From positions 20,584,001-20,648,000 of the forward strand of contig NC_135240.1 of assembly GCF_947623445.1 (NCBI RefSeq): a DNA stretch of 64,000 bases. The letters are read 5' to 3'. Each line of letters begins with the position of its first letter. The first letter of the stretch is position 1. The notes below the pieces were generated by a model, which was given only the letters and a program-made list of their open reading frames with translations, did no database searches and had not been told where the DNA came from. Of this stretch, positions 34,789-63,500 are shown in pieces. A program made the translations under genes and the position numbers. Source of the stretch: Clavelina lepadiformis (lineage: Eukaryota; Chordata; Ascidiacea; Aplousobranchia; Clavelinidae).

Positions 34789-35952
34789 ATGGAAGACTGG
34801 GGAATAGAAGAAGACAAAATGGGAATGACAACTATGTCAGGCACAGTCACCCTCACAAAAGATAGTCAAAATCTTATTGGGATTAGCATAGGTGGTGGTG
34901 CACCTTTGTGTCCATGTCTGTATATTGTTCAAGTCTTTGATAATACTCCAGCCTCCAAAGATGGGTCACTAGCAGCAGGGGACGAAATTGTTACCATAAA
35001 TGGACAGTCGGTAAAAGGTCTTACCAAAGTTCAGTTGGCTAAAACTATCCAAGCTATTAAAGGAGATGTCAAAATTAACTACAACAAGCTGCATGCTGAT
35101 CCAAAACAAGGCAAAACCCTTGACATTATCCTTAAAAAGCTAAAGCACAGGTTAGTGGAGCAAATGGATACTGGAACTGCTGATGCATTAGGTCTCAGTC
35201 GTGCCATATTATGTAATGATGTTCTAATTAAAAGGCTGCAGGACATGGAAAGAACAGCTACCATTTATAGGGGTTTGATGTGTTATTGCAAAAAGCTTCT
35301 CAAAGCTTATTTCAACCTGTGCAAAACACACCGAGAGTTTGGTGACATCTTCTCTGTGATTGGAATACGTGAACCTCACAAGAACAGCAGTTTGGCTTTT
35401 TCAAAATTTAGTGATGCTCATCGCGACTTTGAGAAATCTGGATTCAAACTTTTAAAGACCCTTAAGCCAATGTTAACTGATCTAAATACTTACCTGAACA
35501 AAGCAATACCTGACACCAAGCTTACCATAAAAAAGTATGCCGATGTGAAGTTTGAGTACTTGTCATATTGCCTAAAGGTAAAAGAAATGGATGACGAAGA
35601 ATACAGCTATGCTGCTCTTCAGGAACCTTTGTATCGGGTTGAAACCGGTAATTACGAATATCGCCTGGTCTTAAGATGCAGGCAAGAAGCCCGATCCTAT
35701 TTTGCAAAGTTACGAAAAGATGTTATGGAGAAACTTGAGCTACTCGACAACAAACATGTGCAGGACATAGTTTTTCAACTTCAGAAATTTGTGTCGGCCG
35801 TTTCTGAATACCATGCTGCCTGCCATGATCAGATGAAAGGTGCAGATGTTTTTCCTATAGAGGTTGATCTTGCAACCTCGACATTTGAGTACGACAAAAA
35901 AGAAAAATTTAATGATCCTGAGTATGAGGAAGACATAGAAAACAAATGGTAG
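34789..35952 (+). CDS. PICK1: PICK1, PDZ + BAR (arfaptin homology) scaffold
   Basis: Peripheral membrane protein that binds C-termini of receptors and kinases (PKC-alpha, AMPA-type glutamate receptors in vertebrates) through PDZ and shapes membranes through its BAR domain (family knowledge). 387 residues, human 415. Seen here: PDZ at about 20-105 with carboxylate loop LIGISIGGG and the CPC motif (LCPCLYIV); BAR/AH domain about 145-360 with FGDIFSVIGIREP, LKPMLTDLNTYLNKAIPD and CLKVKEMDDEEYS; and an acidic tail (DPEYEEDIENKW) shorter than in human. The start is set by the strongly conserved ...EEDKMG N-terminus. The coding region has no intron, unlike the multi-exon vertebrate gene. Confidence 0.97.
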   Translation: MEDWGIEEDKMGMTTMSGTVTLTKDSQNLIGISIGGGAPLCPCLYIVQVFDNTPASKDGSLAAGDEIVTINGQSVKGLTKVQLAKTIQAIKGDVKINYNKLHADPKQGKTLDIILKKLKHRLVEQMDTGTADALGLSRAILCNDVLIKRLQDMERTATIYRGLMCYCKKLLKAYFNLCKTHREFGDIFSVIGIREPHKNSSLAFSKFSDAHRDFEKSGFKLLKTLKPMLTDLNTYLNKAIPDTKLTIKKYADVKFEYLSYCLKVKEMDDEEYSYAALQEPLYRVETGNYEYRLVLRCRQEARSYFAKLRKDVMEKLELLDNKHVQDIVFQLQKFVSAVSEYHAACHDQMKGADVFPIEVDLATSTFEYDKKEKFNDPEYEEDIENKW

Positions 35953-37136
35953 ACATGCAAACAATTCCTTGTAAATTTATGGTGCAGTAAGTCAAGGTTT
36001 AAGTGCAGTAAAAACAAACTGGTGCAGTTGCTTATTATGCTCTGTTGGTTGTTTAATTTAAATACTTCAAAGTGTTTTTTGAATGGCAACAGTGCTTGTT
36101 TTTAGTTATAACCTGATTGTTATTCATTGTGTGCATTATGAAGAAATTTTGTTTAGTATTTATCCAGTTGCATGCGTTTGCTTATTTCCTTTAATTTTTA
36201 TGTCAACCTAATAATGGTTATTTAGTTGGATTTTTTAACTTTGTTTATACTTCAAGAACCAGATACCAGGCAATGTACATTGTTAGTGATTTTTATATGA
36301 TGAGTCACCATATCAGCTCCCCACAATCGCAACACTCCACTTAAGAACACATTTTTAAACAAGGTTATTCAAACCTAGTTTATGAGTGATAGGGTTTGAA
36401 AACAGATCAATTATGTACTAAGGTTTTGGCGGTTAGTCTCCCTTTGGTTGAGTGCCATATTCACACAGTGAGGTCAACATTGAAACTAAATTCATCTGGT
36501 CCAAACACGTTTGCTGATCATGCACTGTATATATCGAGCAAATCTATTTATAAAGTTAGTAGACAACCAGAATAGATTAATAATAAGTTTCATGTTTTGG
36601 CGTGTTGTAAAACAATATCTAGAAAAGCATGTCATCACTTATTTAAACAGTATTTCTGTTAATTATTTGCTAGTGATATCACTGCTTTATTGTGTCATGC
36701 ATTCACTACAGCCTGGTGCAGACAGTGTAGGCTACTTATGGGTTGGGCTTACTTGGGCCAGGTTTAAGTAACTGGTCATTGTTGTGTTAATGTCATATTG
36801 TTTCTATAACCATAATTTGTATGCAATTGAGAACTGTTAGCACAAGTCATTTCAAAGAAAAACATAGGTTCAGGGAGCAAATTAATTAACTTTGTTATAT
36901 TATGTATAAAACAATTTTTAACGGGATTAATTTTGATTATAAATTCTATGTTTTGAACTGTAAGTATTTTCACAATGGCAGCAAACCCAATATATCACTG
37001 GTACTCATACTAAAATTGGCTTGCATTGCAGTGTAATGTTTTTTCAGTTTTGTTTAAACATTTCTAGATTTATTGATTAAGTATGTACACATACGGTAGT
37101 ACATGTTCTGCCTGTATCTCCATATTCTTTTTTATT
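35953..37136. other. Spacer between PICK1 and TBCK
   Basis: About 1.2 kb of AT-rich sequence; holds the PICK1 3' UTR and the TBCK 5' region. No gene or repeat recognised. Confidence 0.45.
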
Positions 37137-37154
37137 GTGGTGAATTCTGTCTAG
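37137..37154 (+). promoter_or_regulatory. 3' splice acceptor upstream of TBCK start
   Basis: GTGAATTCTGTCTAG ends 43 nt before the TBCK ATG. It is a candidate acceptor for a 5' UTR intron or a trans-spliced leader. Confidence 0.4.
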
Positions 37155-37197
37155 GTACCTGTCCAGAAATATTGTCTTATGAAATTTTTAATCTAAT

Positions 37198-39783
37198 ATG
37201 TCTGGCAAGCGATTAGGTTGTTTATCATTTGTGACAGCATCTATTCCTCACAATGAATGTGGTAGCAATGGACTCCCATTAACACCCTATTCCATAAAAG
37301 TGCTTGGTCTGGCTCAAGAACTTATAGCTCTGAAGCATGAAAACCTCTGTGTGTATATAGACTTTTGTTGTGGCAAACATGATCGCATATTTGCAGTCAC
37401 AGAATACTATATTGATAGTATAGAATCTTTGATAAATAATCCACCAGCATTGCTTCAATCGGATTGGAACAAACTATGCTTTAAACTCACCTACAATATT
37501 TTATGTGGATTAAAATATTTGAATGACTTCGGTATCTTTCATCTTGGTTTAGAGCCACGAAACATTCTCCTAACTTCAAATAAGTTAGCTAAGCTTTCGA
37601 ACTATGGAATGCATCACATGACTGATGGAGGAAAACTAGTTTTGTTTCCACTTGGAAATAGCAAGTATTCTTCACCTGAGCAGATAATTAGCACGTTCTT
37701 TCCAGATGTTGGTCACAATGCTGTAAGCTCTAAATCAGATGTATGGTCTGTTGCCATTATTCTCTTGGAGTTAATTCACAAAAATTTATTGTGGAAAGAT
37801 GAACCTAATGCTGTAATCATTGCTAATGTACTGCAAATGTTCAAATTCACAAGCTCCTACAGCGTACTCCAACATTTTAGTGAAAATTTTAAAAATCCGG
37901 AGTTTCACATTTCTCCCTCAGAGGACTTCATGGGTTTAAGATTTGTGTTAGAAAATAGCCTTTCTCCAGAAATAAAACACAGATTGAAACCTGCAGATTT
38001 TATCAACCATAGCATATTTTCTCAGTTTTCTATTCCTGGAAACCAAGCCAATGGTATGCACAGTTTGAAATCCTACAGTGAAATAAATTATAATGCTGAT
38101 GTATCTCCAATTGAAGATTTAAACTGTAGTGAGCTATGGTATTTATGGAATTTAGCAGGAGGTGATATGATCTCAGACGTGATGAAATCTGTTACAACCA
38201 CATCTTCCATAACTAAAGCTCCTTTGCTGGTTTCATCAGTTGGTGATTTGAAGGGCTTGCAACCATCACCTGAAACACTGTTCGATACTAATGTAACTTT
38301 ACTTTCCTTGGAAACCTTGCAGAAAAGATTGACAATAAATTGTGATAACTTGAAGTTTTTCTATCCATTGTTGGAAGAGGAAGTTGGGGATGAAGTAGTA
38401 CATGAGGCATCAAAGCTACCACTGCTGATTAGAGAGAATGACTTTGGTTACCAGGTCTATCGCATTGCTCTTTTTAAGCGACTGCTTCTTGCTTATCCTT
38501 ATTTACGTGACCGACTCTGGAAAGAAGCAAGAGTTGACATTCCTCCATTTTGCAGAGGTAGAGTCTGGGCAGGTCTTTTGGATGTTATGGGAAATATTGA
38601 GGAGCAATACCTCAATTATGACAAAGAAACTCCAGTTCCAGCTGATAGGCAGATTGCTGTTGATGTTCCTCGTTGTCATCAATATAATTCTGTACTTTCA
38701 TCCCCAGTCGCTCACCAAAAGCTCAAACGTGTATTGAAGGCTTGGCTAATGGCTCATCCCAATTTGACATACTGGCAAGGATTGGATTCATTATGTGCTG
38801 TGTTTGTTCATCTCAACTTCAACGATGAACCCCTATCTTGGGCTTCTTTATCCAAGTTCATTGACAAATACTTGCATAAGTTTTTCTTAAAGGACAATTC
38901 AGATATCATTCAGGAATACCTGGCTGTGTTCTCCCACCTAATAGCTTTTCATGATCCTCTACTGGCTTGTCATTTAAATGAAATTAACTTTATTCCAGAT
39001 TTGTATGCAATCCCTTGGTTTCTAACAATGTTTGCCCATGTGTTCCCACTGCACAAAATAGTTCATTTATGGGATACTTTGCTTTTAGGAAATTCATCAT
39101 TTCCATTGTGCATTGGTGTTGCAATTTTGCAGCAACTGAGAAGTCAGCTTTTGCAAAGTGACTTCAATGAGTGTATTCTGCTATTTTCAGATCTGCCTGA
39201 AATAGACATCGATGGTGTTGTTCAGAAATCTATTCAGATATTTTGTCATACACCAAAAAGTTCTACTTTTCGTGTTCATGCCAGGAAGGATGTGAAAATG
39301 ACTCGTGAATCATATTCATATTACTCTGAAGATTATAATTGTATGCCCAAAAATGAACTTTCAATTACTGCCATACCTTTACAGGAACTAAAAAATGAAC
39401 TGTGCTGTCGAATATCAGGAGATGATTTAATACAGCTATGTGAGCTACAGGGAACCAATGATTCAAAAACTCCAGCAAAAAGTAACAAATCTGCTAAACC
39501 AAAAATTGCTGTAATTGATATTCGCCCAACTGATGAGTTTGCACGTGGTTCAATTCCATCAAGCTTCAGCTTCCCTATGCGTGGCAATAAATCATCTTCA
39601 AATTTTATTCAGACACTAAGTCAGCAGAAGTTCAAGGTGATTGTTGTTGTTGGCAGTCAATCTAATCATGAAGATAATAAGGGTTTTGCTACTGAGCTAT
39701 TAAAAGCTGGTTTAAAGGGTGTGTGTGTTCTTCATGGAGGGATAGATGTTTTAAAACCTGCTGGTATCCTTACAGTGCCATAA
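37198..39783 (+). CDS. TBCK: TBCK, pseudokinase + TBC (Rab-GAP-like) + rhodanese protein
   Basis: TBCK is linked to mTORC1 signalling, endolysosomal traffic and the FERRY mRNA-transport complex (family knowledge). 861 residues, human 893. N-terminal kinase-like domain about 1-285: the catalytic loop reads FHLGLEPRNILL instead of HRDLKPxN and DFG is replaced by SNYG, so it is a pseudokinase. TBC domain about 445-690: FCRGRVWAGL, DVPRCHQYN at the arginine-finger position, HPNLTYWQGLDSLCAVF with the glutamine finger, then IPDLYAIPWFLTMFAHVFPL and LWDTLLLGNSSFPLCIGVAI, nearly the vertebrate sequence. C-terminal rhodanese-like domain about 765-861 (KIAVIDIRPTDEFARGSIP); no obvious active-site Cys loop. 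The whole coding region is one uninterrupted frame, whereas vertebrate TBCK has over 20 coding exons. Confidence 0.97.
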   Translation: MSGKRLGCLSFVTASIPHNECGSNGLPLTPYSIKVLGLAQELIALKHENLCVYIDFCCGKHDRIFAVTEYYIDSIESLINNPPALLQSDWNKLCFKLTYNILCGLKYLNDFGIFHLGLEPRNILLTSNKLAKLSNYGMHHMTDGGKLVLFPLGNSKYSSPEQIISTFFPDVGHNAVSSKSDVWSVAIILLELIHKNLLWKDEPNAVIIANVLQMFKFTSSYSVLQHFSENFKNPEFHISPSEDFMGLRFVLENSLSPEIKHRLKPADFINHSIFSQFSIPGNQANGMHSLKSYSEINYNADVSPIEDLNCSELWYLWNLAGGDMISDVMKSVTTTSSITKAPLLVSSVGDLKGLQPSPETLFDTNVTLLSLETLQKRLTINCDNLKFFYPLLEEEVGDEVVHEASKLPLLIRENDFGYQVYRIALFKRLLLAYPYLRDRLWKEARVDIPPFCRGRVWAGLLDVMGNIEEQYLNYDKETPVPADRQIAVDVPRCHQYNSVLSSPVAHQKLKRVLKAWLMAHPNLTYWQGLDSLCAVFVHLNFNDEPLSWASLSKFIDKYLHKFFLKDNSDIIQEYLAVFSHLIAFHDPLLACHLNEINFIPDLYAIPWFLTMFAHVFPLHKIVHLWDTLLLGNSSFPLCIGVAILQQLRSQLLQSDFNECILLFSDLPEIDIDGVVQKSIQIFCHTPKSSTFRVHARKDVKMTRESYSYYSEDYNCMPKNELSITAIPLQELKNELCCRISGDDLIQLCELQGTNDSKTPAKSNKSAKPKIAVIDIRPTDEFARGSIPSSFSFPMRGNKSSSNFIQTLSQQKFKVIVVVGSQSNHEDNKGFATELLKAGLKGVCVLHGGIDVLKPAGILTVP

Positions 39784-39795
39784 AAACATTGCTGA

Positions 39796-39801
39796 AATAA
39801 A
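39796..39801 (+). terminator. Possible polyadenylation signal of TBCK
   Basis: AATAAA starts only 12 bp after the TBCK stop codon. If used, the 3' UTR would be very short, as in closely packed or polycistronic gene pairs. AT-rich sequence downstream may offer others. Confidence 0.35.
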
Positions 39802-40208
39802 TTTTTAGTATTAGCGCAATTTATGTGCATGTTGATGAACTTATGATTTGTAACATTGTGATTAAAGTAACAGAATGATATAACCTAGTTATATTGTCTT
39901 GTTAGTCACATGTCGTGCATTCTTCAGATGTGAAATTGTTTTGAAGTTATTTGCTGCTTGTATACACAGCAATATTTATTAATAGAAATTATTGATACTA
40001 TAAAAATCATTGCTTAATACAAGTAAAACCAAATATGATGCTTTATTTATAACCACTTCTTAACGAAATGTAGCACATCACAGAGAATGAACAGATATTA
40101 TTGTATGTTTAATTGTAAACATGCTTAAAATTATGATGTTATTCTTATCATTAAGTGTAGTTGGCAATAATTTTTTATAATATTTAAATATCATTTGCAA
40201 TATATATG

Positions 40209-40226
40209 TCAGCATTTTTTATGCAG
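40209..40226 (+). promoter_or_regulatory. 3' splice acceptor upstream of LACTB2 start
   Basis: TCAGCATTTTTTATGCAG ends 54 nt before the LACTB2 ATG and about 440 bp after the TBCK stop. It is a candidate cis- or trans-splice acceptor. Confidence 0.45.
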
Positions 40227-40280
40227 GTAGTAATGTGAGTGTGCAGAGCACTGTTAATTGAGAACCCTGCTTAACAAACG

Positions 40281-41135
40281 ATGTTGTCTACCATCCCCAA
40301 AGTGGAACAGCTAACCTGCAGGATAGTCAGAGTGCTAGGATGTAATCCGGGACCAATGACTTTACAAGGCACTAACACATACCTTGTTGGAACAGGACCT
40401 AAACGTATGCTCATTGACACTGGGAATCCTGATGTGCCTGAGTACATTGAAAACTTAAAAGAGTGTTTAAATGACAAAAATGTATCCATAGAAGCAGTTG
40501 TTTTGACTCACTGGCACCATGATCATGTGGGAGGTATCAAAGATCTGTTTAAAAACAAGCTTATAAGTCTAGATACACCCTTGTATAAATTCCCTCTTCG
40601 TATAGATGAGAAGCCAAATAACAACGAACTAAAATATTCCTATCTAAAAGACATGCAAGTACTTCAGACAGAAGGTGCAACAATGAAAGTAATTTTCAGT
40701 CCTGGACACACCAAAGATCACATAGCCTTGCTTATGGAGGAAGATAATGCCATATTCTCAGGAGATTGTGTCTTAGGTGAAGGAACAGCAGTTTTTGAGG
40801 ATCTGCATGATTACATGAAGTCTTTACAATTATTGGTTGACCTAAAGCCTGGTCGTGTTTACCCTGGACATGGAAAGGTTGTAAATGAACCTGTTGAGTT
40901 CATGCAGTACTATATAAAACACAGAAATGAAAGGGAAGAACAAATTGTTGCATGTTTGAAAGAGTGTCACCCTATTCCTGTCGAAAGCATGGAAATTGTA
41001 AAAAGGGTATACAAAGACGTACCGGTGGTACTTCACTTGCCTGCAAACACCAACGTTAATAATCACTTGAACAAGATGAAAAAGGAAGGCAGGGTGACTG
41101 AAGAAAATGGAAAGTGGATACTGTCTAAATTGTGA
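40281..41135 (+). CDS. LACTB2: LACTB2, metallo-beta-lactamase-fold endoribonuclease
   Basis: LACTB2 is a mitochondrial single-strand endoribonuclease of the metallo-beta-lactamase fold (family knowledge). 284 residues, human 288. The zinc-ligand motifs are all present in order: VLTHWHHDHVGG (HxHxDH, residue about 73-84), SPGHTKDHIALL, FSGDCVLGEGT and YPGHGKVV. The N-terminus has GCNPGPMTLQGTNTYLVG, typical of the family, and the C-terminal winged-helix-like part ends LNKMKKEGRVTEENGKW. No introns in the coding region. It follows TBCK on the same strand after 497 bp. Confidence 0.97.
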   Translation: MLSTIPKVEQLTCRIVRVLGCNPGPMTLQGTNTYLVGTGPKRMLIDTGNPDVPEYIENLKECLNDKNVSIEAVVLTHWHHDHVGGIKDLFKNKLISLDTPLYKFPLRIDEKPNNNELKYSYLKDMQVLQTEGATMKVIFSPGHTKDHIALLMEEDNAIFSGDCVLGEGTAVFEDLHDYMKSLQLLVDLKPGRVYPGHGKVVNEPVEFMQYYIKHRNEREEQIVACLKECHPIPVESMEIVKRVYKDVPVVLHLPANTNVNNHLNKMKKEGRVTEENGKWILSKL

Positions 41136-41759: not shown

Positions 41760-42130
41760 TGAAATTTACCAAAAGCAAGTTGTCGTGGTGAAGCACCTAG
41801 AGTTGTCCTGTCAAAACTTGCGCACTGAACGAATCAAACGCCGCAGTATCTCTTATAGACATGCTGGTTGATTTTCTGGCCTTGTGGCAAGAACCCGCAG
41901 TGGACGATATCCCTCACATCGAAGAATGCAATCAACGTGAGTTGTGGCAGGGCAGCTCGTAGGTGCTTTACCACGACAATGCACCTGCCCACACTGCCCT
42001 GAGTATCCGAGACTTCCTCCCTACTCGACCAACCTGGCTCGATGTGATTTTTTTCCATTTCCCGTGGTCAAGCGGGCCATCAAGGGAACCCGTTTTAAGA
42101 ATGTGCATGGCATCGCTTTTGTGAGATGAA
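41760..42130 (+). mobile_element. Degenerate mariner transposase fragment
   Basis: Read across frames, the segment shows YHDNAPAHTA (the second catalytic Asp of mariner, about 41970-41999), then an LPPYSTNLARCDFFPFP-type stretch holding the third Asp and KGTRFKN. The parts are in different frames and the N-terminal DNA-binding region is absent, so it is a dead fragment. It abuts the transposon nest to its right. Confidence 0.75.
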
Positions 42131-42323: not shown

Positions 42324-42338
42324 GTTTGCCGCGGTGGT

Positions 42339-42821
42339 CGGACGATTCAACCCACGGACGATTCAACCCCGGACGATTCAACCCACGGACGATTCAACCC
42401 AGGACGATTCAACCCCGGACGATTCAACCCACGGACGATTCAACCCGCGGACGATTCAACCCGCGGACCATTCAACCCGCGGACCATTCAACCCACGGAC
42501 GATTCAACCCGCGGACGATTCAACCCACGGACCTTTCAACCCACGGACGATTCAACCCACGGACGATTCAACCCAGGACGATTCAACCCCGGACGATTCA
42601 ACCCACGGACCTTTCAACCCACGGACGATTCAATCCAGGACGATTCAACCCCGGACTATTCAACCCGCGGACGATTCAACCCACGGACGATTCAACCTCG
42701 GACGATTCAACTCCGGACGATTCAACCCGCGGACGATTCAACCCACGGACGATTCAACCCAGGACGATTCAACCCAGGACTATTCAACCCACGGACGATT
42801 CAACCCCAGACGATTCAACCC
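42339..42821 (+). repeat. Left minisatellite array of the MULE
   Basis: About 30 tandem units of GGACGATTCAACCC followed by AC, GC, C, A or nothing, so units are 14-16 bp. Variants include GGACCATTCAACCC, GGACCTTTCAACCC and GGACTATTCAACCC. The array is open in all three forward frames only because the units lack stops; I do not regard it as coding. Confidence 0.95.
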
Positions 42822-43476
42822 GTTTATAAAAACGTCTACGCAGTTCGTTATCAGGCACGGATGCCGCTTTTACCACTATACCAATACACATCTTGTGTTG
42901 AAATAAAAACAAGTTTATGTACCGTGTTGTAACTAGTAGGCCTGCTTAGCGAAAAATAAAGCCTACACGTCGATTAAAAGTCAAACCTTAGAAACAACTG
43001 TTTGTTGATTGGAATGAAGATTGCACGCCAAAAAAGTCTATATGGTCAATTTTTTTTAACCTGCTCAGAATGCTATCACAAACCGCAAACAATGTTGGAC
43101 ACACAAACATTGTACCGCAAACAATTCCAGTGCCCCAAATTAGAGGCCTACTTAGAACCAAAGCCACCAAGAGAGGGAAGGCCTTTCAGCGCGTCTGGTG
43201 ACGTCACGATGTGAAGGCATTGCATTTGAAACTGCAAGTTGTCAATCTTAATACGCAGAAACGAAAATAGTCAACACTAGAAAAGCGTTTCGTCAATTTT
43301 AAATGCAGTTTTAGATTAGAAAGTTGCTGTAGACAGTGTAGAGACTATCAGTATAGCGTTTTTCAGTTAGCAACATGCAAGATTTTTGATTTTAAAATGT
43401 AATAACAATCATAGCCGTTTGAGCTTTACAATACACAAGTTATTACTTCTCTAGGTGGCATTGGTAGATCTCTAAG

Positions 43477-44346
43477 TTGCCGACAATTTCTTTCATGTAT
43501 TATGTCACAATCGCAGACGGAACTTTCGACGTCGTTCCTGGCATCTTCTTCCAGCTGTACACAATTCACTGCAAGGTTGGACACAGTTATCGACCTATAG
43601 TTTACTTTCTCTTGCCCAACAAGTCTCAAGAAACGTATACAAAGATGTTGCAAGCCCTCAGGATTATACGTCCAATGGCACAGCCCTATAAAATTCTTTT
43701 GGATTTTGAAATCGCTGCTAGAAATGCATTTAGGTCTGAATATCCTTCAGCAACCGTTTCCGGTTGCTATTTTCATTTGGCTCAGTCCGTTTTAAGAAAA
43801 GTAAACGAACTCGGTCTGAAAACCAGGTATGAAACCGACGGCATCTTCCAAATGTTAGTGAAGTCGCTGTCTGCATTGTCTTTTGTTGCAGTCGCTGACC
43901 GGGAGAGTATTTTTGAACAACTTGCCAGCACATTTCCAGACGAGGTAGCCTGCAACGATCTTTTAGTTTACTTTGAAAGCAATTATATCCGTGGTCCAAG
44001 AACAGGACGCCATCAACGACAGGCTAGATTTCCCCCTTCGTTGTGGAATCATTACGACGACGCGGTACTTTGCGAGCCCAAAACAACAAATTGCACAGAA
44101 GGGTTTCACAATGCCCTCAAATCACTATTACTGTGTTCTCATCCGAACATTTGGTCATTTCTGGACGGTATAAAACGCGATATCGCGATACAAAGGCTCG
44201 GTGCTCAAAACGCAGCAGTTGTTAATTTGGACCAACCACGAAGCAAATACACGCACCTGGCTCACAGACTTTCGGCAAAGGTTTGCACTTATGCAAATGA
44301 GCCAGATAAATTGATGTATCTGCGTGCAATCGCTCATATGTGCTAA
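43477..44346 (+). pseudogene. MULE transposase domain, 5'-truncated
   Basis: The 289-residue frame shows the DDE transposase core of Mutator-like elements: IADGTFDVVPGIFFQLYTIH with the first Asp, VYFLLPNKSQETYTKMLQAL, ILLDFEIAARNAF with the second Asp, GCYFHLAQSVLRKV (the C..H motif), and CTEGFHNALKSLL with the catalytic Glu region. These are in the right order and spacing. Sequence before ADGTF, including any FLYWCH or other zinc-finger DNA-binding part, is missing or broken, and a long N-terminal part expected of full-length proteins is absent from 42822-43476. The frame itself has no stop inside the core, so decay is recent or partial. Confidence 0.85.
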
Positions 44347-44914
44347 TTAATTACCGTTTGTAGTACCCTTTTCAGCTTTGTGTTTTATACGTGCTGTGTT
44401 TGTGTTCAGGTTCATGTTCTTAAGCTTGCCTGTAAATAAAACAACTTTCTTTCTAATTAATCGATGTATAAACAGGTATCTATAAAAATATCTGTAATTT
44501 GTGTACATGCAAAAAAATAAATAACTTACACACATTTACGTACGTGAGTCGAAAGCTAACTAAATCATGCATTTTGTCTTTTCAAAAACTTCAAAAATGT
44601 TAACTTAATGCTAAAAGGAGAACATTTTATATACTAACCGATCTACAATGGTCAATACAAAAAATAATAGCAGGCGTAGACAGAAATATACGCAAAGTAC
44701 TGTATAGGGCAAAATAACAATATTCAAGGTTTTACTGGAAAGCAGAAAACAATAAGTGTTTTGATGTACAACCAATGCTAACAAGAAGTGGTAAAAGAAA
44801 AAAAAGGAAACACAAAAAGCTTTATATTAGCTTAGGCCTATATATTAGCTTTATTTAGCTTACATAATATTGGCTACAAAGTAACTTGGTGATAACCTAA
44901 GCCAATAGTACGTG

Positions 44915-45315
44915 AAAGGTCCGTGGGTTGAATCGTCCGCGGGTTGAATCGTCCGTGGGTTGAATCGTCCGTGGGTTGAATCGTCAGTGGGTTGAATCGT
45001 CCTGGGTTGAAAAGTCCTGGGTTGAATCGTCCGTGGGTTGAAAGGTCCGTGGGTTGAATCGTCCTGGGTTGAATCGTCCGGGGTTGAATCGTCCGTGGGT
45101 TGAATCGTCCGCGGGTTGAATCGTCCGCGGGTTGAATCGTCCGCGGGTTGAATCGTCCGTGGGTTGAATCGTCCGCGGGTTGAATGGTCCGCGGGTTGAA
45201 TCGTCCGCGGGTTGAATCGTCCGTGGGTTGAATCGTCCGGGGTTGAATGGTCCTGGGTTGAATCGTCCGTGGGTTGAATCGTCCGGGGTTGAATCGTCCG
45301 TGGGTTGAATCGACC
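44915..45315 (-). repeat. Right minisatellite array of the MULE (inverted)
   Basis: About 25 units of GGGTTGAATCGTCC, the reverse complement of the left array, with the same variants (GAATGGTCC, GAAAGGTCC) and the same unit-length changes. The outermost unit is GGGTTGAATCGACCTG then GAACC, which also ends the remnant at 11.74 kb. Confidence 0.95.
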
Positions 45316-45479
45316 TGGAACCGTTTGCCGCTATTAAAAGGTTACTCCACGTTAAAACATATGTGACGTTAATCGTTTGCAATTTTACTTGATATTTCCA
45401 TATTAAAAAAGATCAACAGTTGTTAAAATTAGTATTAAGAATAAAGTAACACGTATTTCTGAAAATATACTTGTTCAAA

Positions 45480-51500: not shown

Positions 51501-54500
51501 CTTCCTAAAGAGAAGTTTTTGCTGTTTTGATCAACTGTTACAGACTGTTAGAGAAATTGTCAGTTTAAAAATACAAAACAGTTTTTTGCTTGTTTGTATT
51601 AATTCAATTTTTATTTATTGAATCAAACTTGTTAAGACCAGAGCTGGACAACCACTCTTCTAACAAGAGCGTGCCTCTCCCTCCTCGATGAAAAAAGAGT
51701 GTTGCTCAATCTTTCGCTCTTTTATACGAATAAGAAGGCACACTCGTTTTGATGCTCTCGCTTGAAGAACTTGCATCTAACTGAAGCCTAATATGTTATG
51801 AATGTTCTTATGTTGAAGAGTTTGTTTTTGTCACACAGGCCACATATGATTAACAGAGGAGTTTTAAGAACCCTCTACAATTGTTGATGTCCACATTCAT
51901 TCATTAATTAAATATTATTCACTTTAAAAGCATATCTGGCTTACGTTATAAAAATAACGTACGCTAGTAAAATGTTTAATGATCGTTATAACAAATGAAA
52001 CTAATTGCAAACCACTATCTAACCGCTTTTATTTCGCATTTGCAGCGTTGTTTGTGTGTAAAAAGGGCGATGAGCGGATAACCCTTAGATAAGAGCATGC
52101 TTGTGGTTCCGCTCCGAAAAAAGAAGTGCGCTTGTGCCCAGCTCTGGTTAAGACGTAAAAAAATCCGTGTTGAAGATACAATTGTGTTCAAACTGACTAA
52201 TTCAATTAAAAGAATTTAGTCAATTGGTCAATTACTTCATGTAAAGTACAGATTAAAGTGTGACAAGTTCGACAACTTTACGTAAAAATATGTAACAAGT
52301 GACTTAATCTGGATTAGCATTATATCTATTGATTTAACATATCTGTTTCTAAATTGTCGTGTCGGAATTGGACAACGAGGTTTTAGGGTTATAAAAGAGT
52401 GAAATACAAAAGAAGAAATCCATTCCGAGCAGTTTAATGTCAAATAACGGGGATTCCACTTTGTTTTGGTTTCATGCAAACAAGGCTTATTTGTATATGT
52501 AATTGTGGTTTTGCTTGTGAAAAGAAGGACTGCAATAGCTCTATACTTTTCTCTAGGTACTTGGCAAAGTTGGTTATCGGGTGTTGGAACTCTTACTAGA
52601 AAGTTTCATTTCCATATTCCTTTGGCCAGGATAAGGCTAAGGAAGCATGAAAATTATCATTTTTTTTTTAAATTAACAGAAATGATTTAAAGTTTTTGGC
52701 TCATGAATAGAATTAGAAATATACTAAGTCAAATGCTTCTGTGTTAACTCCCTGGCTATGTGTGTTTTAAAAAGTATTAGCCAAGCTCAAATTTTGCAAT
52801 GAATATATGTATCATATCAGAAATAAATCTTGGAATTTAAGTCTATTATTATTGAGAAGTATGATTTCTAAAATTTGTAGGAGAAAGACAAATAGCTTCA
52901 GTTAATGAAGACAAGAAAGATTCACCATTTGGTCTTCTAGTTAAAGATATGAAAAACATTCTTCAAAATTCTACACCACGTCGAAAGAAGACAATGCAAG
53001 AACTAATTCAAGTATTTATGATGCTTTTCTGTAATAAACATGTTAATATTCATTCATGAATATTGGTAGTTTATATCTTTACAATTTACTTATGGTGTTT
53101 TAGAGAAAAGTTGTTACACCTTTGCCATCCTCTACAAAATCGAATCGGCGCTCATCTTCACTGCCAACTCCTAAAAAGTAACTGCTTTAATAAATATATT
53201 TGATGTGCTGGTTGAATGATTTATTACTTTTTATACTTTTTCCGATATTCATGAATCAGGATTTCATGAATTTACCATTGTGCTAAAAGTGTGCAAAATT
53301 TGTTTTAATTTACAGTCGCAGACGATCGTTCCAAACAGATAAACAAACAAAGAAAATTGCGAAAGATAATTCACCAAAACATCAAATTTCTGAAGAAAAT
53401 TGTGCAGAAAATCTTATTGATGGCAAACTTGTTCATCAGCCTGATTCAAATTTGACACAGTGTCAGACAGCAAAAGCACTAGAAAGTGAAATTAAAGAAC
53501 CAATCAAAGTTGTAGAAAGTGAACAAACAAATCCAGATATTACAAAAAACAAAGATATGGTGCCACAGTTTTCACCTTCAGGAAATGAAAGCTCTCCAAT
53601 TCCATTGGAATCAAGTAACTCGGATGCAACAGCATTGATGTCAAGCTCCATTGATTCTGTTATGACATCTGTAACCAACCCTGCAAGAAATTCCTTGAAT
53701 AAGGCAATGATTGATGAAAGCCTTTCCGATATTTCATCTCCAGTTTGCAAAGTGGCAGAAATCAGTCCTGCTCTTTCAAACGCACCAACAAGTTCATCTA
53801 GAAGAGAAAGCTCATGTTCATTGATTGAAAGTGAAACCTTGCAGCAAGATATTTCTTCCATTATATTAGATAAAACTCCAGTGGAAAACGTTGGTTCTTT
53901 TGCTGATTCAAGTTCTAGCTCCCTCAATAAAGGAATAATTGTTGAGAGCTTTGCTGATGGTTCTTCTGCAGACAATAGTGATATCGCTGTTGAAAATTCA
54001 GGAGAAAAGCCAAAGAGAAATCATAGAAGGTCATCAAAGATCCGTCCTAGTTTACTAAAATTGCAGGAAGTTGCAGCTATTGCTGAAAATACTGAAACAG
54101 TTTCAGTTGATATTGGAGCTGACAAAGAAGATGAATGTAAATCACTACCAGTAACTACTGAACATAATTTATCAAATGCTGAATGTACAAATGATGAGAT
54201 CCCAAGTAATACAACCAAAGTGGAGCCAATAAAAAAAATTTTGTCCGATATTCTTTCCGTGGAAAATCAAGCATCTGTCTTAAATATAGATCAAGGGTTA
54301 CAGAAAAGTGACATAAGGCCATCAAGGAAGTGTTGTAATGTATTTACATCACAAGAGATAACAACTGTTGGTGAAGGAGCTGATAATATTTCCATCAATG
54401 ATGAGTCTGCAGTGGTATGCGAGGAAAAAAGTGAACATGCTCCAGCAAATGTTTCCAATGAAATGCAAGAGCTCGAGAGTCTATCTAACAGCTTGTCTAA

Positions 54501-57500
54501 TGTGAATTCTTCGTATATGGAAGTGGGGAATGAAAGCACTACTGCTGCTTCTTCTCCAGGAAGTGATGTTCTTGCCTTAAGCTCGCAAAAGCAGGCAAAG
54601 GGAAGTCAAAGAAGATCATCAAGGAGGCGATCAAGCTTGTTCTTATCGCAAGAGGTGTTGTTAAATAATCTTGGGATTACTGAAAGTAGTGAATCTTTGG
54701 CAGTTGATGGGGATAAAAATTGTAACTCAGCTGAAGAGTCCTCTACAGACCAAAGTCTTACAGACACAACCATTGATGAGCTAGATAACAGTTTGTCAGG
54801 TCAGAAATCTGTTGGAAAAAGATCTTCAAGGCAAAGATCCAGTTTGTTTGCAGATCAACAAGATAGTTCTTCATCTCCGGAGACAAAATCTGCTGCAAGA
54901 TCGTCTTCAGACAATGAGGATGATCGAGTCAACGAAACTGTTATCTCTGTTCCATCCATATCTCTCACTGGTAACAGTTCATTTGTCTCAGATAGTAAAA
55001 TTGATCCTTATGAGTTTGTGGATAGATCTATTGGTGCCAAAATGAAGAAATCCAGGCGACGATCACATGGAGACTGCATTGGAATGAACCGAAAACAAGA
55101 GTTGCTACTGTTTGGAAGTCCGCGTGTACGCAAAACTGTTTCTCTTCGAGCAAGCTTGGGAAATCTAAAGCGAAGATCTGAACCACTATTGGAAGATGAT
55201 GCAGAAGAAGATGTGACAGCTACATCTAGAAGCAACATTAACCAAAAATGGGATCCCCTTCCAGAGACAGTTGAGGTTGAAAACAACTCCTCCCCGATCA
55301 AAAGACCAAGGTTGTTTCACACTTCTTCGATGGTGCATGATTCATACTCTCAATCATCAAAAATGAAGACACGTCGTGTTTCTTTTGGCCCTAATCTAAG
55401 TCCTGAGCAGTTTTGCAATCATTTTCCTCCAAATACACCAGTTAAAAAAGGTGCTACTCCAACTAAGCTTGATGTTAGGAAATCTGGCCGCAAATCGCTC
55501 ATTGCAAGTGGCATGACCAGTCTGGACACTCTTGAAGAAGACACGACACTAGAAGAAGACACTGACATAACACCTGATTTAAAACATAAAGTAATCCGTA
55601 CACCAACACCTTTCAAGCCAAACACAGAGAAAATGAAATCAAAATCACTTTTGCACCAGGTCCTGCATGCTTCTATTGATTGCACAAGGTGTGTATTTGA
55701 TTGGCGTAACATTTTAATAATTTGTTTAATTTTTAAAAAAAATATTCGGCTATAGCAAGGAGTATTTTGACTATATAAGTAATCAAGCTCTTATGTATGA
55801 AATTTGCCTTTTACAGTCAGTCAATGCTTGGTAGTTCCCCGATACTAAATGACAAAAAACAAGCTCGTCTCTTGGAGAGGTCTGATTTTGTTTTGTTATC
55901 TAATGTAAATTTGTAAAATACTGGTAAAGAATTCAAGTTCCTATAACAGTTTTAGTTGCTAATCTCAACTCATTAACATCTTAATTCATTTCAGCTCACA
56001 GAAATCAACAGACAAACAGTCAACCAAATCTGAAAATAAGGTATTTTTTGTATTATTATCCTCAGCATATTTTTTAGAAGTGTGTATGTTTTTAATCAAA
56101 GTCTAATTAATTTTTAACATACAACTTCTTTCCTAGAAGTTTCTAAAGAGAAGATCCAGTGGAAATATAGCAATTGTCAATGTCCACAAAACTGCCACAA
56201 ACTTGTAAGTGGAACACTTAATAACATTGAGAACAATGCTTCAATATTTAGCAACCATATATTCAAGGTGGGTTGAACTGTTTTTTGCAAAATGAAACAT
56301 TTTTCTTCAAAACAGGCAAAAACGAAAAAGTCTGCGTTGCCATAAGCCCTTGTGGTCTGAAATTGTGAAGAAAGCACCAACAGTGCAAGCAAGAGCAACC
56401 AGCACCAAGGGTTCTAAACTGGTATGTCATGTTGGTAAAAATTATATGTTAATATGTTTAATAAATAATATGTTAGGTTTAGTTGGAAAGAATTTTATCA
56501 GGTGTAAACTTCTTTAACAGAGGGCCACATAAAGGAGGGATAGACTAAGCGTGGGACCTACATACTGCACAAACTACAAATGTTATGGAAAAATTTTTCC
56601 CATCAACGTAAACTTCAATAACATTAAAAGTCATGGAAGCTCAAAGTCCAGATTTTTAAACAGACGAAACACCAATCACTTGAAAATGAAAAACAGTCAA
56701 AAATGACCGCTTAAAGCATTTCATGTTATAATGCCTAGCATAGCATGTCGTACATAGCAAGAAAGAAAAAAGTTAACAAAAATGTGTATCTTCTTTAAAA
56801 TTTATCAAGAAAAGGACATTACAATCAATTCAATCATTAAAAATGTTATAAATATTTCAAGTATATGGGAACATATTTTTGGTGTTAAATTTATACAAGC
56901 CGTAAGCCGTAAGTCAGAGTGATATGCAATATCTTTCCAGAACCTCTGTTTTATTTTTTTCTCGATTCATTCGTACTGTATTTTTTTTATTTTCTGTAGC
57001 GGTTCTTCTGAAAACACATCATAACAACATTGTAGCTTCAGCTTTCATTACATCTTTTTAAGGATGACTTAGTTAACATTCAAGTAACTAAATAAGACGA
57101 TCATAATCATAATGTCAAAAGTTAAAACTTGTTTTTAAACTTGCCCCTCATTTTAAGAATTGATGATTGTTGTTTTCAAGAAAGATTTACCCTAGTATTT
57201 GCCTAGTTTATTGTTTGCGTTTAACCAAGAGCTCATTAGAACAACAAAATATGTCTTGGCTTCCAGCCAGTTGTGTGTATTTCCCACTTCAGGCACATGC
57301 ACAATTTTGACACACAATCAACATGTGTGCAGTTTTAAAGCTCTTTGTATAAAATTGTGCATACTTCTCAGAAAAAAGTAATAAATCACATAATGAACAA
57401 CAGGGACCTTAACTATAGGCAAAAGCAGAGAGTAGTGAGAATATCACACACCCAACAGGCTTCAGCCATGCGATCCAACATTATATGCGAAAGTTTTGCT

Positions 57501-60500
57501 TTTACTACAACGTGCCTCTCTTTCATTGATTGCTTGAAAGAGAAGTGAACTGGAGGCCAAATGAGAACATCTCAAGGATCGTGGATAGAGATCCTTGCTT
57601 TAAAACATAAACAGTTAATTTCGATGAAATGAAAATAACGATTTTTTTTCCAGGAAATAATATCCAAGCAGAGAACAAAAAACTTTGGAACACCTGTGTC
57701 AGATAGAGCAGGTCATCATGTTGAGTCCCCTGCAACATTGTATATTGGGAGATCAAGGCGTCATTATAATCCGACACGCACTCCTCGCCCAGAAAAGTCA
57801 AGTCTTCAAATGGTAAGCAGCGTGCTCATCTGTAAATTGCCATGCACAAATAACGTTAAGTTTAACTTAACGCTATAAAAAATGGATATTTAGACAATAA
57901 GCTGTTTTAACACAATATAAAACACATTATAAATACAACTCTGTGAAAGTACTGATCGTACACTTTTATAGAAAGCCAACATACCTCTTGATGAAAGCTT
58001 TACTGGAATAGGCGATATGTTTACGACTCCTATGAAAAACGAGCATGATGATGAGTATGATCTATACAGTGACTTGCAAACTCCTGACCTCAGTGGCGAT
58101 ATGGTTGTTTCACCATTGTCTACATGTTCATCACAAAGATGCAGCAGAAGAGCATCGGGTGTGGAAGAAAACAATGTAACAGCTCCCAATCTAAGTCAAA
58201 CAAAAGCAGCAAAATATTCTGATACTCTGGAAGAAGATGGTGCCACTCTCAGTATTAGAAAGCTCTTTACTCAAACTAATTCTGATGAGGAGGAAAGTTT
58301 GGATGAGCTCTTCAAAGATGATGTGGTTATAGAAAGTAATGCAAGCAATGAGCAATTAAATATTGAAAATGAATCTATGGTTCTTCGCAAGTCAAAACGA
58401 ATAAAAGAAAAAACAAAATCAGTGGAAGAGCACTTTGGCACAAAGAGAATCTTCAAAACACCAAAAGATAAGAAATCTGAACCAGTGGAAGAGCACTTTG
58501 GCACAAAGAGAATCTTCAAAACACCTAGAGATAAAAAATCAGAATCAGTGGAAGAGCACTTTGGCACAAAGAGAATCTTTAAAACACCAAAAGATAAGAA
58601 ATCTGTACCAGTGGAAGAGCACATTGGCACAAAGAGAATCTTCAAAACACCAAAAGATAAGAAATCTGAATCAGTGGAAGAGAACTTTGGCACAAAGAGA
58701 ATCTTCAAAACACCAAGAGATAAAAAGTCTGAACCAGTGGAAGAGCACTTTGGCACAAAGAGAATCTTCAAAACACCTAGAGATAAAAAATCGGAATCAG
58801 TGGAAGAGCACTTAGGTACAAAGAGGATTTTCAGAACACCAAGAGATAAAAAGTCTGAACCAGTGGAAGAGCACTTTGGCACAAAGAGAATCTTCAGAAC
58901 ACCTAGAGATAAAAAGTCTGAACCAGTGGAAGAGCACTTTGGCACAAAACGTTTATTTACAACACCTAAAGAAGCAAAGTTGCAACTCGATGAAGGTTGT
59001 TTGGGTCTAAGTCGCTTATTTGCATTACCGAGACATAAAAAAAATTCTGAGGATGACCAGGAATTGGAAGGAATGGAACAGCTCTTTTCAAGTTCTCATT
59101 CCAGCCTTGCTTCACAGGATGCAGCAGCAGAAAAACATCCATTGCTTGAGTCTAAAAATTTATCTAAAAAGTCTACTAGACGTACAAGAAAAGAAATTGC
59201 TTGCCATGCAATAAAGGAAGAATACAGTCTGGAGCACCCAGTAAAGCACCACCGTGCAACTGAATTAAAAAGCGGCAGCACTACTGTAGCTGATGCATCA
59301 GTACCTACGGCAACAAAAGTGACTAGAGGCAGAAGAGCTCCCGTCAAACAAGCCCGTACTCGAGTTACTAGAAACACCAAAGCAGAAGCGGAATCATTGC
59401 CACGAGTGATCAATACGTCGGATGCTACCTTTTCAAATGCTGACTCAAACAGCAGTCAAATGCAAAAAGGAATAGTAACAAAATGTTTTACCAAAAAGGC
59501 AGGAAAAGCAGTTAGTTTTCACTCTTCGGTGAAACCAGACAATGATGGCAGCAGTTCAACCATTACAGGCACTAAAATTAAGAACCAGACCAGCTGCACT
59601 TCGACAAAATCAATTACAAGACATTCTCCTAGAAGGGGTCAGAAGAAAACAAAAGAAAATGTGGTTTTGGCAGGTACATTATTAAGCCACAATCTAATGT
59701 AGCTTTTTTTGTTCAACAAAGCTAATTAGACTATTTTGTTTTTGCAGATATCAAAAATATCCCGGAAGTGTCACCCACTGCTGTTGCACCAAACAATAAC
59801 AGTTTTAGTATGTGTTTTTAATCTTACATTTTTGTTTCATAAATAAAATCCTAAAGATGCTATTCTTGCCAGAGCATGTTACTGTAAAATAGCCATATCC
59901 CTCTTTAAAGCTTTGGTTGCAATTGTTAGATGAAACTGCAACGATGCAAGCTGTTAAGCCATTTGCTGGCAAAAGAAGAAGGAATGCAACTGATGTGAAT
60001 TCATCTGGTATGTTCCGATTGCGACCTTTTCAATGTTCATCATCTTTGCAAGGAATGTAGTTGGAATGACTTAATTTCAGAGCAATACTGCTATCTTTTT
60101 TGTTTGTAGTTGAAAGGCCTACAAAGAAAAGTAAACAAACGTCATCTGATAATGCTAAAGGTGAGTGCTGGCAATGAATTTTTTTTCCAATGTTGTAAAA
60201 CTTGAAAATGAATTTGCTGTAAATTTTGTAAAAGTTAAAAAAGTTGATGCGCTAGCTTCAAACAATATTACAAGAAGTTTCTGTTGCAGAACACTTAGCA
60301 AGGGTTACCTAAAACACTTGCTGGAATTTTCAAATAAATGTTGCTAAATTTATAGATAAAAAACAAATACTTAAAAATATAGTTAAGTTACACAAAAGCA
60401 ATTACTACGGTACATAAAACTCGCATGAAGCTTCACAAAGTTTGGTCATAGATTTAGCTTGCCTTGGCTATAATTTTATCTGATGTGAACAAAATCACAT

Positions 60501-63500
60501 CAATTAAATCAATCCTGCTTTTGTATGGGATCTTCTAAGACAAGGCTGAAAATTTTGGTTGAAAAATTCACATTTGAGCAAATCTTCCAAATCTATTTTT
60601 ACCAACATTTTCTTGCAGCTTGGAACTTTTATGCATGCCTTATTGCCATATGGTAGTTGTACTAAATGATGCCGTCATGCTTAGCTTAATTAAATGTAGA
60701 ACCATTCATCTGAAATAATAGAATAAGGATATGCAAAGCAACATAACCTCACACCTCAAAAGATGTTCGTTTTTCACAATGCAAACCGTGAAGTAGTCGC
60801 AGTCTACAATGAAGAAAAACAAACTTGCCCGAAGCAGAAACAAAACTCCTGATTCAGGCCCTGAATCACTGTTGTCGAGTTCATATTTGGACACCGCACA
60901 GCGAACGGAAATCGCGAGGACTCGTCGATTATGGTTAAGATATACTTGTTCTTAGACGATGAAGGTATCGGTCCTAAAGTCGATGCTAATTCGTTCCGTT
61001 GGCTTTGTAGCATTTATTAACGCCGTCTGGGGAGTTCTGTAAAATCTTGGTTTATTTTCAGCGCATATTTTATAGTTCGAACATATATTTCGTATTTCGT
61101 CGGTTGAAAAGGGTAAGTTCTTCATGCGAATAAAGTGCAACATTCTGGTGACTCCAGGATGGCCCAGGTTATTATGGATGTCTTCTAGTTGACTTGTTTG
61201 ATTGATAGAGGCGCTAGTTGATCTTGAGAGACAGTCTGCGACCGGGTTCATTTTGCCAGGATGGTAGCGAATTGAGTAATTAAGAGAGGCAAGCTCCAAA
61301 CGCCAAGTTTGGATTTTATTGTTTTTGGTTTTCGTGCGACGACGATTGTCAAGCATGCAAGCTACAGATCGTTGGTCAGTTACTAGTTCGAAGCTTTGGC
61401 GTTGTAATAGATCTTTCCATTTTTGAGTAGCTTCTTTTTCCATAGCTGGATACTTCAATTTACTTCCGCGCAACATACGTGACATGAAAGCGACCTGTCG
61501 TCCACCTTGATTTAGAGATGCTAATTCAGCAACATCTGAAGCGTCGCACTCAACAACAAATGGCGTAGTCTCATCAATGGATTGTAATGAGGTGGTGGCC
61601 AGTTCCGTTATAAGCTGGTGAAACGTTTGCTCGGAATCTTCACTGAGGGGAAAGGACTGTTGTTAGTGGTTTCACCTTGTCGGAAAACCGTGGAATCCAC
61701 TTCGAATAATAAGACAGGAAGCCAAGAAGGCGTTGTAGAGCCTTTTTGTTCTGTGGGAGAGGATATTCTTGAAGTGGCTGTAGTCGGTCAGGATCTGGTT
61801 TGATTTATTTGTGTTGGACTTGGTAACCAAGAACGTTGATTTGACAAACCGATTTGACAGTCAAGCTTTCATTGAATGTTAAGTTTCGGCATTTGAATAC
61901 GCTAAGCAGTTTTTGGACATTATCGTCATGTTCTTGTTGTGTCCTGCCGCAGACCGTGACGTTATCTTGGTATGCGAAAATGTCATTCAGATTTTCTTCA
62001 ATGATACGGTCAATTGCTCTCCGGAAGTTGATCCCTCCGTTTGTGACGCCATACGGAATTCTTTTGTTAACTTGCCATCAGCTTCGAACGCTGTGTAGAC
62101 ACGGTCGGTTTCTAATATCGGGAACTGATGATATGCGGATTTCAAGTCGAATTTTGAGAAGACGGAGTACTTTGCAAGTTCAGGTCATCTATTCTTGGAA
62201 ATGGATATGCATCTACGTGAGTATAAAGGTTAATCGTTTGTGAGTAGTCCACCCAATTCGTGTTTTTCCTTCAGTGCGAACAACTACTATCTGTGCTCGC
62301 CACGGAGACCGGCTGGGTTCAATTACATCATCATCTTGCATTTTTTTGATTTCTACTCGAATAAATTGTTCGTCAGGTTTGCTATATCGTCGTGATTTAA
62401 CTGCAATAGGTTTGCAAAATTTTGGTAACTGTGGAAATAAGGTTTCGGTTGCAATTAAAAGATGTTCGTTTGTCACAATGCAATCGGTGAATTAGTCGTA
62501 GGCTACAATGAAGAAAAACACACTTGCCCGAAGCAGAAACAAAACACAAGAAATAATTAACATAAAATGAGGCGAGTTAACGAAGGAGTTTTCATTACAG
62601 TAGTATAATTCCCAACTAAAAAACAACACCAGCTTGCTTTTAATTGGTGTTCTTTTTTTTTAAAGAAAAGTTTGATGTAAGAGTTCAGAATTTTCAGAGA
62701 ATTCAAGTTTTAAGGTGTTTGCTGCCTCTTTGAACTAATGTTTAACATTATTACCAATGCAGCTTCGTTATTTGGTGAATGAAGTAGCTTAGATAAGCTG
62801 TATTCATTTTTGCAGAAAAGCCTAATTCAGCAAAAATTGCCACAAGGAAATCATCGAGAGGAAAAACAATGATTGAGAATTGTGAGCCAATCCAGCTAGA
62901 AGGTGATTTTACCGGCAATTATTGATAAAATTTTGAAAAATAGGCCTACTTTTGATCATCGTGGAATCAGGATTAAGAAGTACTGTAGTAATTTGATATT
63001 TAGTTGCCATTAACATGTATCATTTTATAGCCACTGTATGTGTGATTGCTCTTCACATAAATTGAAAATTACCCATTGGTCAAAGTTATGTTACCAATTG
63101 TTTTTGTAATAGAATATTACTTTGATTTTTTTATTTTGTGGTTTTATTAAATCATTAATTTCTTTATAGACGAAGTCAGGCCAGTTGCGAAAAGGAGTAG
63201 TAGCAGAAAAACTCCAACACCAAAAAAGACCAAATTGCGTAAATTTGCATTATATATAATAGAGAGCACAGACTTTAAACAAACAAACTTAATCACAAAC
63301 AGCTCACGTAAATTATCATATCTAAAATCCCACGGTTTGTATAGAAACAGCAAGTAATAAAGAAGATATCAAAAAAGTAAATATTGACAATGAACATATT
63401 AGTGAAGGTAAAATGCAGTTATATTTCAAATTATTTTCACCACTCGATATTGATCTTAATTTTTTTAGTTATTTGTATTAAAAAGCACAGAACCACTATT

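Follow-up and report, generated by a model that had tools for sequence, protein, structure and literature searches.

The window examined here is a 64,000-nucleotide stretch of the Clavelina lepadiformis genome (contig NC_135240.1, positions 20,584,001 to 20,648,000), in which a transposon-like element occupies positions 42333-45322. To its left, three long frames (34789-41135) encode proteins with PDZ-Arfaptin, kinase-TBC-rhodanese and metallo-beta-lactamase fold domains, which we take to be PICK1-like, TBCK-like and LACTB2-like, respectively, and a degraded stretch at about 41900-42130 resembles, by eye, a mariner/Tc1 transposase remnant. To its right lies a 767-residue frame (53452-55755) with a PP1_bind domain (4.7e-11), presumably of the kind known from Ki-67/RepoMan, which makes this a possible Ki-67-like gene. 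A nearby 561-residue frame (58017-59702), in which Pfam recognised no domain at an E threshold of 0.001, contains 8.4 copies of a EEHFGTKRIFKTPKDKKS-like 63-bp (21-residue) repeat at 58420-58948, and a frame at 60952-61485 resembles, by eye, part of a Ty3/gypsy pol gene.

The element is bordered by a perfect 9-bp duplication, GTTTGCCGC, at 42324-42332 and 45323-45331, the left copy of which is also supported by empty-site paralogues. Its ends are exact to the base and carry the same tip types as 36 other two-tipped loci. The left end consists of the 'V' tip GGTGGTC (42333-42339, + strand), one of two asymmetric 7-bp ends, followed by an array of 31 inward-reading units of GGACGATTCAACCC with a 15/16-bp period and linkers of mostly 1-2 bp (42340-42821, + strand). 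A left non-coding body (42822-43476), partly common to other copies, occupies the position at which one of these, L029, has the N-terminal coding part of its transposase. It is followed by a truncated transposase frame (43477-44346, + strand), a 3' non-coding body (44347-44918), a right array of 25 inverted units whose outermost unit is the variant GGTCGATTCAACCC (44919-45315, - strand), and the 'P' tip, which reads GGTTCCA inward on the - strand (45316-45322). Tandem Repeats Finder reported 30.9 copies of a period-16 unit with 90% matches at 42339-42821 (the left array) and, inverted relative to these, 25.1 copies at 44919-45312 (the right array); the longest inverted arms span 358 nt with 96% complementarity. 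The description given in a first-pass annotation of the window, that of inverted minisatellite arrays around a Mutator-like (MULE) core, was confirmed by Tandem Repeats Finder and the Pfam MULE match described below, and its borders and perfect 9-bp duplication proved exact.

The transposase frame comprises 289 residues counted from a TTG (292 as an open frame), matches the Pfam MULE domain with an E value of 1.9e-10, above the curated cut-off, and keeps the aligned D, D and E residues. As the N-terminal FLYWCH zinc finger is missing, the window copy is probably non-autonomous. A copy with the missing domain, for which the first-pass annotation had proposed a search, was found at L029, where a 437-residue open frame combines FLYWCH (3.4e-6) and MULE (1.4e-8) matches, both over the cut-off. 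L029 is itself broken, its FLYWCH region being split between frames and the likely protein start lying, by eye, in another frame, and it showed no right array within the 5.2 kb read. None of the loci read for the window element's family (family A) combined two ends with a complete, uninterrupted transposase. In the related family B, a 539-residue open frame at L052 has both FLYWCH (6.1e-7) and MULE (3.7e-12) matches over the cut-off. Residues D162, D224 and E356 (L029 numbering) are invariant in the three aligned sequences, their catalytic roles being taken from the DDE triad of Muta1 as given in the available part of PMC5225508; the related locus L062 has G at the first D position. A PHD finger, the mark of the Rehavkus transposase according to the available part of PMC6446971, was not detected, even at an E threshold of 1, in L052, in two frames from the window or in two from L029, which sets these proteins apart from Rehavkus.

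Further copies were sought in the 209,060,895 bases (95 contigs) of the C. lepadiformis genome. A body probe returned 671 candidates, of which 40 were scored, and the family A set was defined as 41 loci (the window copy, L009-L047 and L051), made up of 40 groups formed by eye from the body-probe matches listed, plus L051. As a result of this sampling, copies with conserved bodies are over-represented in the set. An exact two-unit pattern of the array occurred 606 + 546 times genome-wide and its reversed control 0 + 0 times, so that the pattern cannot be attributed to chance. Tips were present at both ends of 37 of the 41 loci, in every case as one V and one P tip (the best tip pair being used for compound loci, here and in the duplication count), and 29 of these 37 are flanked by an exact 9-bp duplication, whereas none of 1332 mismatched left/right flank pairs agreed at nine of nine positions and two agreed at eight. 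Among the other two-tipped loci, L035 matches at eight of nine positions, three have exact 10-bp duplications, one has an exact 8-bp duplication, and L017 and L047 have none at the expected place. L014 has no clean 9-bp duplication; in its place, about 19 bp are repeated at the printed flanks, as a direct repeat (L014:1606-1624). The further copies with the same ends and 9-bp duplications that the first-pass annotation had called for therefore exist, and the window element is one of many copies in this genome.

The remaining four of the 41 loci are one-ended. The same was true of all four loci (L065-L068) chosen for a single array orientation in the pattern list, although, as just 2-kb stretches were read there, their array partners may lie outside. 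These four belong to eight one-orientation pattern groups, formed by eye among the matches listed, of which L049 and L050 are two more. Eight one-ended loci were scanned, and each ends at a V or P tip with at most four mismatches, L067 fitting both tips. Two arrangements involving more than one copy were also seen. At L030:1705-4591, two family A copies of opposite tip order adjoin within 2.9 kb. L049 and L050 form an inverted segmental duplication of a one-ended copy, with a short nested insertion in one arm by eye; an apparent giant 18-kb composite element from C1:1670893 to C1:1689741 was rejected for this reason, its ends being that duplication of a single one-ended copy, with the nested insert.

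Empty sites, another check suggested by the first-pass annotation, were found for four copies (L051, L018, L015 and the window copy). At L051, a family A copy lies within a copy of family B, and the joined flanks of the former, with one copy of the duplication retained, were 100% identical over 244 nt to C5:13185697-13185940; 39 of the 40 matches listed cross the junction, the remaining one being its own right half. When the joined flanks of nine loci were searched together, all 40 matches listed crossed a junction, either that of L018 (3) or that of L015 (37), and thus cover these two of the nine loci. The window copy was inserted into an older dispersed repeat, and 38 of the 40 matches listed for its joined flanks span the junction, with 79-84% identity and short indels, the other two being its own halves. 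That the family has moved is shown by its repeated copies, constant tips and empty sites, together with target duplications that are mostly of 9 bp. The same evidence bears on the possibility that an independent pair of minisatellites came to flank a MULE fragment by chance. Some loci do show a single array within the stretch read, as such a coincidence would allow, but a V or P tip terminates the one-ended loci scanned as well, the tips are fixed, and the exact duplications and empty sites in effect refute this explanation, to which we assign a negligible probability.

Array composition was analysed in 1444 units from the 34 loci that have a single V end and a single P end, leaving out L023, L027 and L030 (compound) and L013, L029, L044 and L045 (one tip). 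Counts were ended at interruptions, so that the P array of L010 was scored as 3 units (with 15 more after the gap) and the V array of L040 as 23 rather than 45. V ends contained 3-50 units, with a median of 21, and P ends 3-31, with a median of 20; the lowest P count comes from the outer part of the interrupted L010 array, and the next smallest is 5. Unit number per end, whose tabulation had been proposed in the first-pass annotation, thus varies widely (3-50); expansion and contraction of the ends are seen in this variation in length and may, as the first-pass annotation proposed, come about by recombination. Spacing between units was 16 (904) or 15 (469) bp in all but 3 of 1376 cases. Eleven of the 14 unit positions were conserved at 97% or more, with position 3 at 96%, position 5 at 82% and position 6 at 90%. 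Two further properties considered for the arrays were not supported. Homogenisation of both ends of one copy was not indicated, as V and P arrays of the same copy were not significantly more alike than those of different copies (mean 0.213 versus 0.203, p 0.19). Helical phasing, in which the mean spacing of 15.66 bp (about 1.5 turns per unit) would arise from alternating 15- and 16-bp steps, was also unsupported, since neighbouring spacings gave sums that varied more than those of shuffled arrays, with a positive lag-1 correlation.

It was also considered whether the arrays might be passengers, produced near the ends by slippage during replication or by unequal exchange, with the outermost unit alone being recognised. 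Unit number was found to be uncorrelated between the two ends of a copy (rho 0.18, p 0.31), and L024 and L036, with merely 3 or 5 units at one end, nevertheless have perfect 9-bp duplications, both of which would fit dispensable arrays. The short arrays may, however, have shrunk after insertion, median lengths of 20-21 units, found at both ends, appear greater than would be expected of DNA without a use, and the variation among the 1444 units is concentrated in positions 5-6 and the linker.

Related transposase loci were read from a protein search (L051-L060, 135 matches) and a MULE-domain search (L062-L064), L061 being a mere extension of L058. Their transposases are approximately 28-65% identical to that of the window, and most have arrays of about 15 bp alongside, with an inverted pair of such arrays or units in nine (the L051 host copy, L052 and L054-L060). 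Family B (the L051 host copy, L052, L056 and L057; 41-44% identity) has the unit GACACTTAATCACG and tips GGTGTACC/GGTTTGGT, and its two-unit pattern, with up to one mismatch, occurred 959 times in the genome against 0 for the control. Units are of a degenerate GACAATTAACCG type in family C (L054, 38% identity, the left side by eye), of the GCGACTGTCA type in family D (L055 and L060, 33-34% identity, L060 being short on the left) and of the GACACTTTATCGAA type in family E/F (L058 and L059, 35-36% identity). A short GTGACAGTTCATTTGA-type array was present on one side only of L063 (family G); L062, assigned to family G by its frame (28% identity), has an array resembling that of a neighbouring E copy. 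L053, at 65% identity and with stops, has two arrays of family A units in direct orientation and no inverted array partner in the stretch read; its second array begins with a V tip, like another copy. Target duplications match at nine of nine positions in L052, L055 and L058 and at eight of nine in L056; where the border drawn by eye was shifted one base from that of the script, the duplication is 8 bp in L057 and matches at eight of nine in L054. No target duplication was found at the borders of the B copy at L051, and the left tip of L060 was not found. L064, a MULE unmatched by the window protein, showed no array in the flanks read (about 0.7 kb and 0.1 kb); its 885-residue frame (L064:104-2758), which differs from the families described, has a MULE domain (3.8e-8) and internal repeats in its N-terminal part. 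At G000:C9:2577932-2612116, five MULE-domain matches lie about 8.5 kb apart, resembling a tandem array of an 8.5-kb unit.

Drosophila FB elements have tandem-repeat ends and long inverted repeats and can carry the Mutator-related NOF gene, and sea urchin TU elements have long inverted repeats of tandem-repeat composition with a unit of about 15 bp. Both resemble the window family in their long inverted tandem-repeat ends. Array-based inverted ends together with a Mutator-related gene, as in FB-NOF, could place the window element in the FB-NOF lineage proper, but the transposases found here are of the FLYWCH plus MULE type, the domain order of Phantom, Muta and Tm1, and such membership, judged by domain composition, appears highly improbable. 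The first-pass annotation had offered FB-NOF as an established parallel; to regard it as the best one would be an overstatement, as Muta1 and Tm1 are closer.

According to the available part of PMC5225508, each end of Muta1 of Aedes aegypti combines a terminal motif of 10 bp with nine repeats of 12 bp that are separated by spacers of 3-4 bp (a pitch of 15-16), and in Muta5 the motif measures 8 bp and the nine repeats 15 bp each. Their transposases (504 and 554 aa) are described as FLYWCH plus DDE, with an 8-9-bp duplication; Muta1 transposes in yeast, where Muta5, similarly built, did not move, and both have many derivatives, those of Muta1 varying in repeat number (PMC5225508). The window family is similar in its terminal motif, tandem-repeat terminal inverted repeats (TIRs), FLYWCH transposase, 8-9-bp duplication and the presence of several such families per genome; it differs from these insect elements in having 3-50 rather than nine repeats per end, the comparison being one of design. 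It was likewise an overstatement to treat repetitive ends as unusual for MULEs of animals, since subterminal tandem repeats are present in 10 of the 12 Aedes MULE families with long TIRs (PMC5225508). Tm1, a Meloidogyne Mutator/foldback element, is described in the available part of PMC3169594 as having asymmetric 7-bp tips, GGA and 13-15-bp tandem repeats CGATTCAGTATCCGC, with one tip of each kind in 24 of 39 and 20 of 22 elements, mostly 9-bp duplications and a 496-aa FLYWCH plus MULE protein. Of 16 positions compared between the printed GGA and repeat and the window unit, 11 agree, including all of the first ten, and 32 of 20000 shuffles did as well in fixed phase. Tm1 differs in having 1-9 units per end, usually of 14 bp, and its tips (CGGTTAA/CCTACCC, against GGTGGTC/GGTTCCA in family A) and only partly similar unit place the window element outside the Tm1 family.

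In the classification presented in the available part of PMC6446971, the Phantom group (group 20) has FLYWCH in some members, 8-10-bp duplications and Tunicata among its hosts; a minisatellite follows the ORF in aphid members, and Muta elements fall in the same group. The N-terminal FLYWCH plus MULE arrangement of Phantom/Muta is present in L029 and L052, the window copy being without FLYWCH, and this assignment is based on domain composition. The MULE domain with its D, D and E residues and the 8-10-bp, usually 9-bp, target duplication place the elements in the MULE superfamily, and the short terminal motif, tandem-repeat TIR and variable unit number identify them as type-2 foldback MULEs of the Muta1/Tm1 design. 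As Muta1 and Tm1 share a terminal motif, repeats of 14-16-bp pitch, FLYWCH plus MULE and an 8-9-bp duplication, the architecture is already known from mosquito and nematode, and the window family belongs to this known kind; the new details are the longer arrays and a register common to several families. No account of such Mutator-like elements was found among the papers listed in searches on Ciona, ascidians and Clavelina, Repbase lying outside this search, and the window family is probably undescribed in the literature searched.

The shared register concerns the distance from the tip to the unit core. Counted from the element end, the first GAC starts at base 9 in families A, B, C and E, the core reading GTC in the P end of A and in the left end of C, where the border was set by eye; in family D the core begins at base 20. 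When one typed first unit from each of A, B, C and E was compared in tip register, leaving out D, for its core at base 20, and G, for which no tip was read, 53 matches were obtained over the six pairs against 22.5 expected, a value reached in 0 of 20000 shuffles. Under free rotation, the likeness was not significant for A-B (816 of 2000 shuffles), A-E (588 of 2000) or A-Tm1 (538 of 2000), and was significant for B-E (25 of 2000), for A, B and E together (16 of 2000) and for all six families (0 of 500). Turning the A unit to the opposite strand hardly lowered the six-family score (114 against 117), in a comparison in which C's phase was mis-set. Family C fitted A equally well on the opposite and the same strand (9 and 9), and the conservation profiles of A, B and E showed no significant correlation. 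A register common to four families of diverged transposases is a further argument against passenger arrays, and that explanation is considered unlikely.

We return to the reading of the units as multiple transposase-binding sites, which the first-pass annotation had put forward. The finding that the diverged units of related families stand in one register lends this idea indirect support, the regular spacing and conservation of the family A units also speak for it, and on the sequence data the unit is likely to be a binding site for the transposase. It is very probable that the element is a cut-and-paste FLYWCH-MULE transposon of the Phantom/Muta type, with TIRs formed by an asymmetric 7-bp tip and an array of units acting as putative transposase-binding sites. 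Each unit would be bound by the FLYWCH finger of the transposase, so that several transposase molecules would gather on the array at each end. The catalytic domain would then cut at the V and P tips and join the element to a staggered 9-bp cut in the target. Array length would meanwhile drift through the gain and loss of units, with copies of very different unit number having moved.

A broader proposition is put forward tentatively, as possible though somewhat less than probable, namely that this one genome holds at least four, and perhaps six, FLYWCH-MULE families whose units have diverged together with their transposases while keeping one register, which may even reach nematode Tm1. The rule may be that a GAC/GTC core is set off from the tip by eight bases, with the units at a pitch of 15-16 bp, for which GGACGATTCA is the Tm1 candidate. 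Evidence for MULEs in chordates is described as limited, with one Ciona sequence named as an exception, in the available part of PMC6446971, and the present family adds a many-copy tunicate example with repeat-array ends, in which the arrays far exceed the unit numbers given for Muta1, Muta5 and Tm1. The diverged sets of units and transposases make the reading of ends by a FLYWCH transposase, and the number of units needed per end, directly testable. If the register rule is true, pitch and register would be set by the packing of transposase molecules on DNA, and the pairs of units and FLYWCH fingers would constitute a natural data set for a recognition code.
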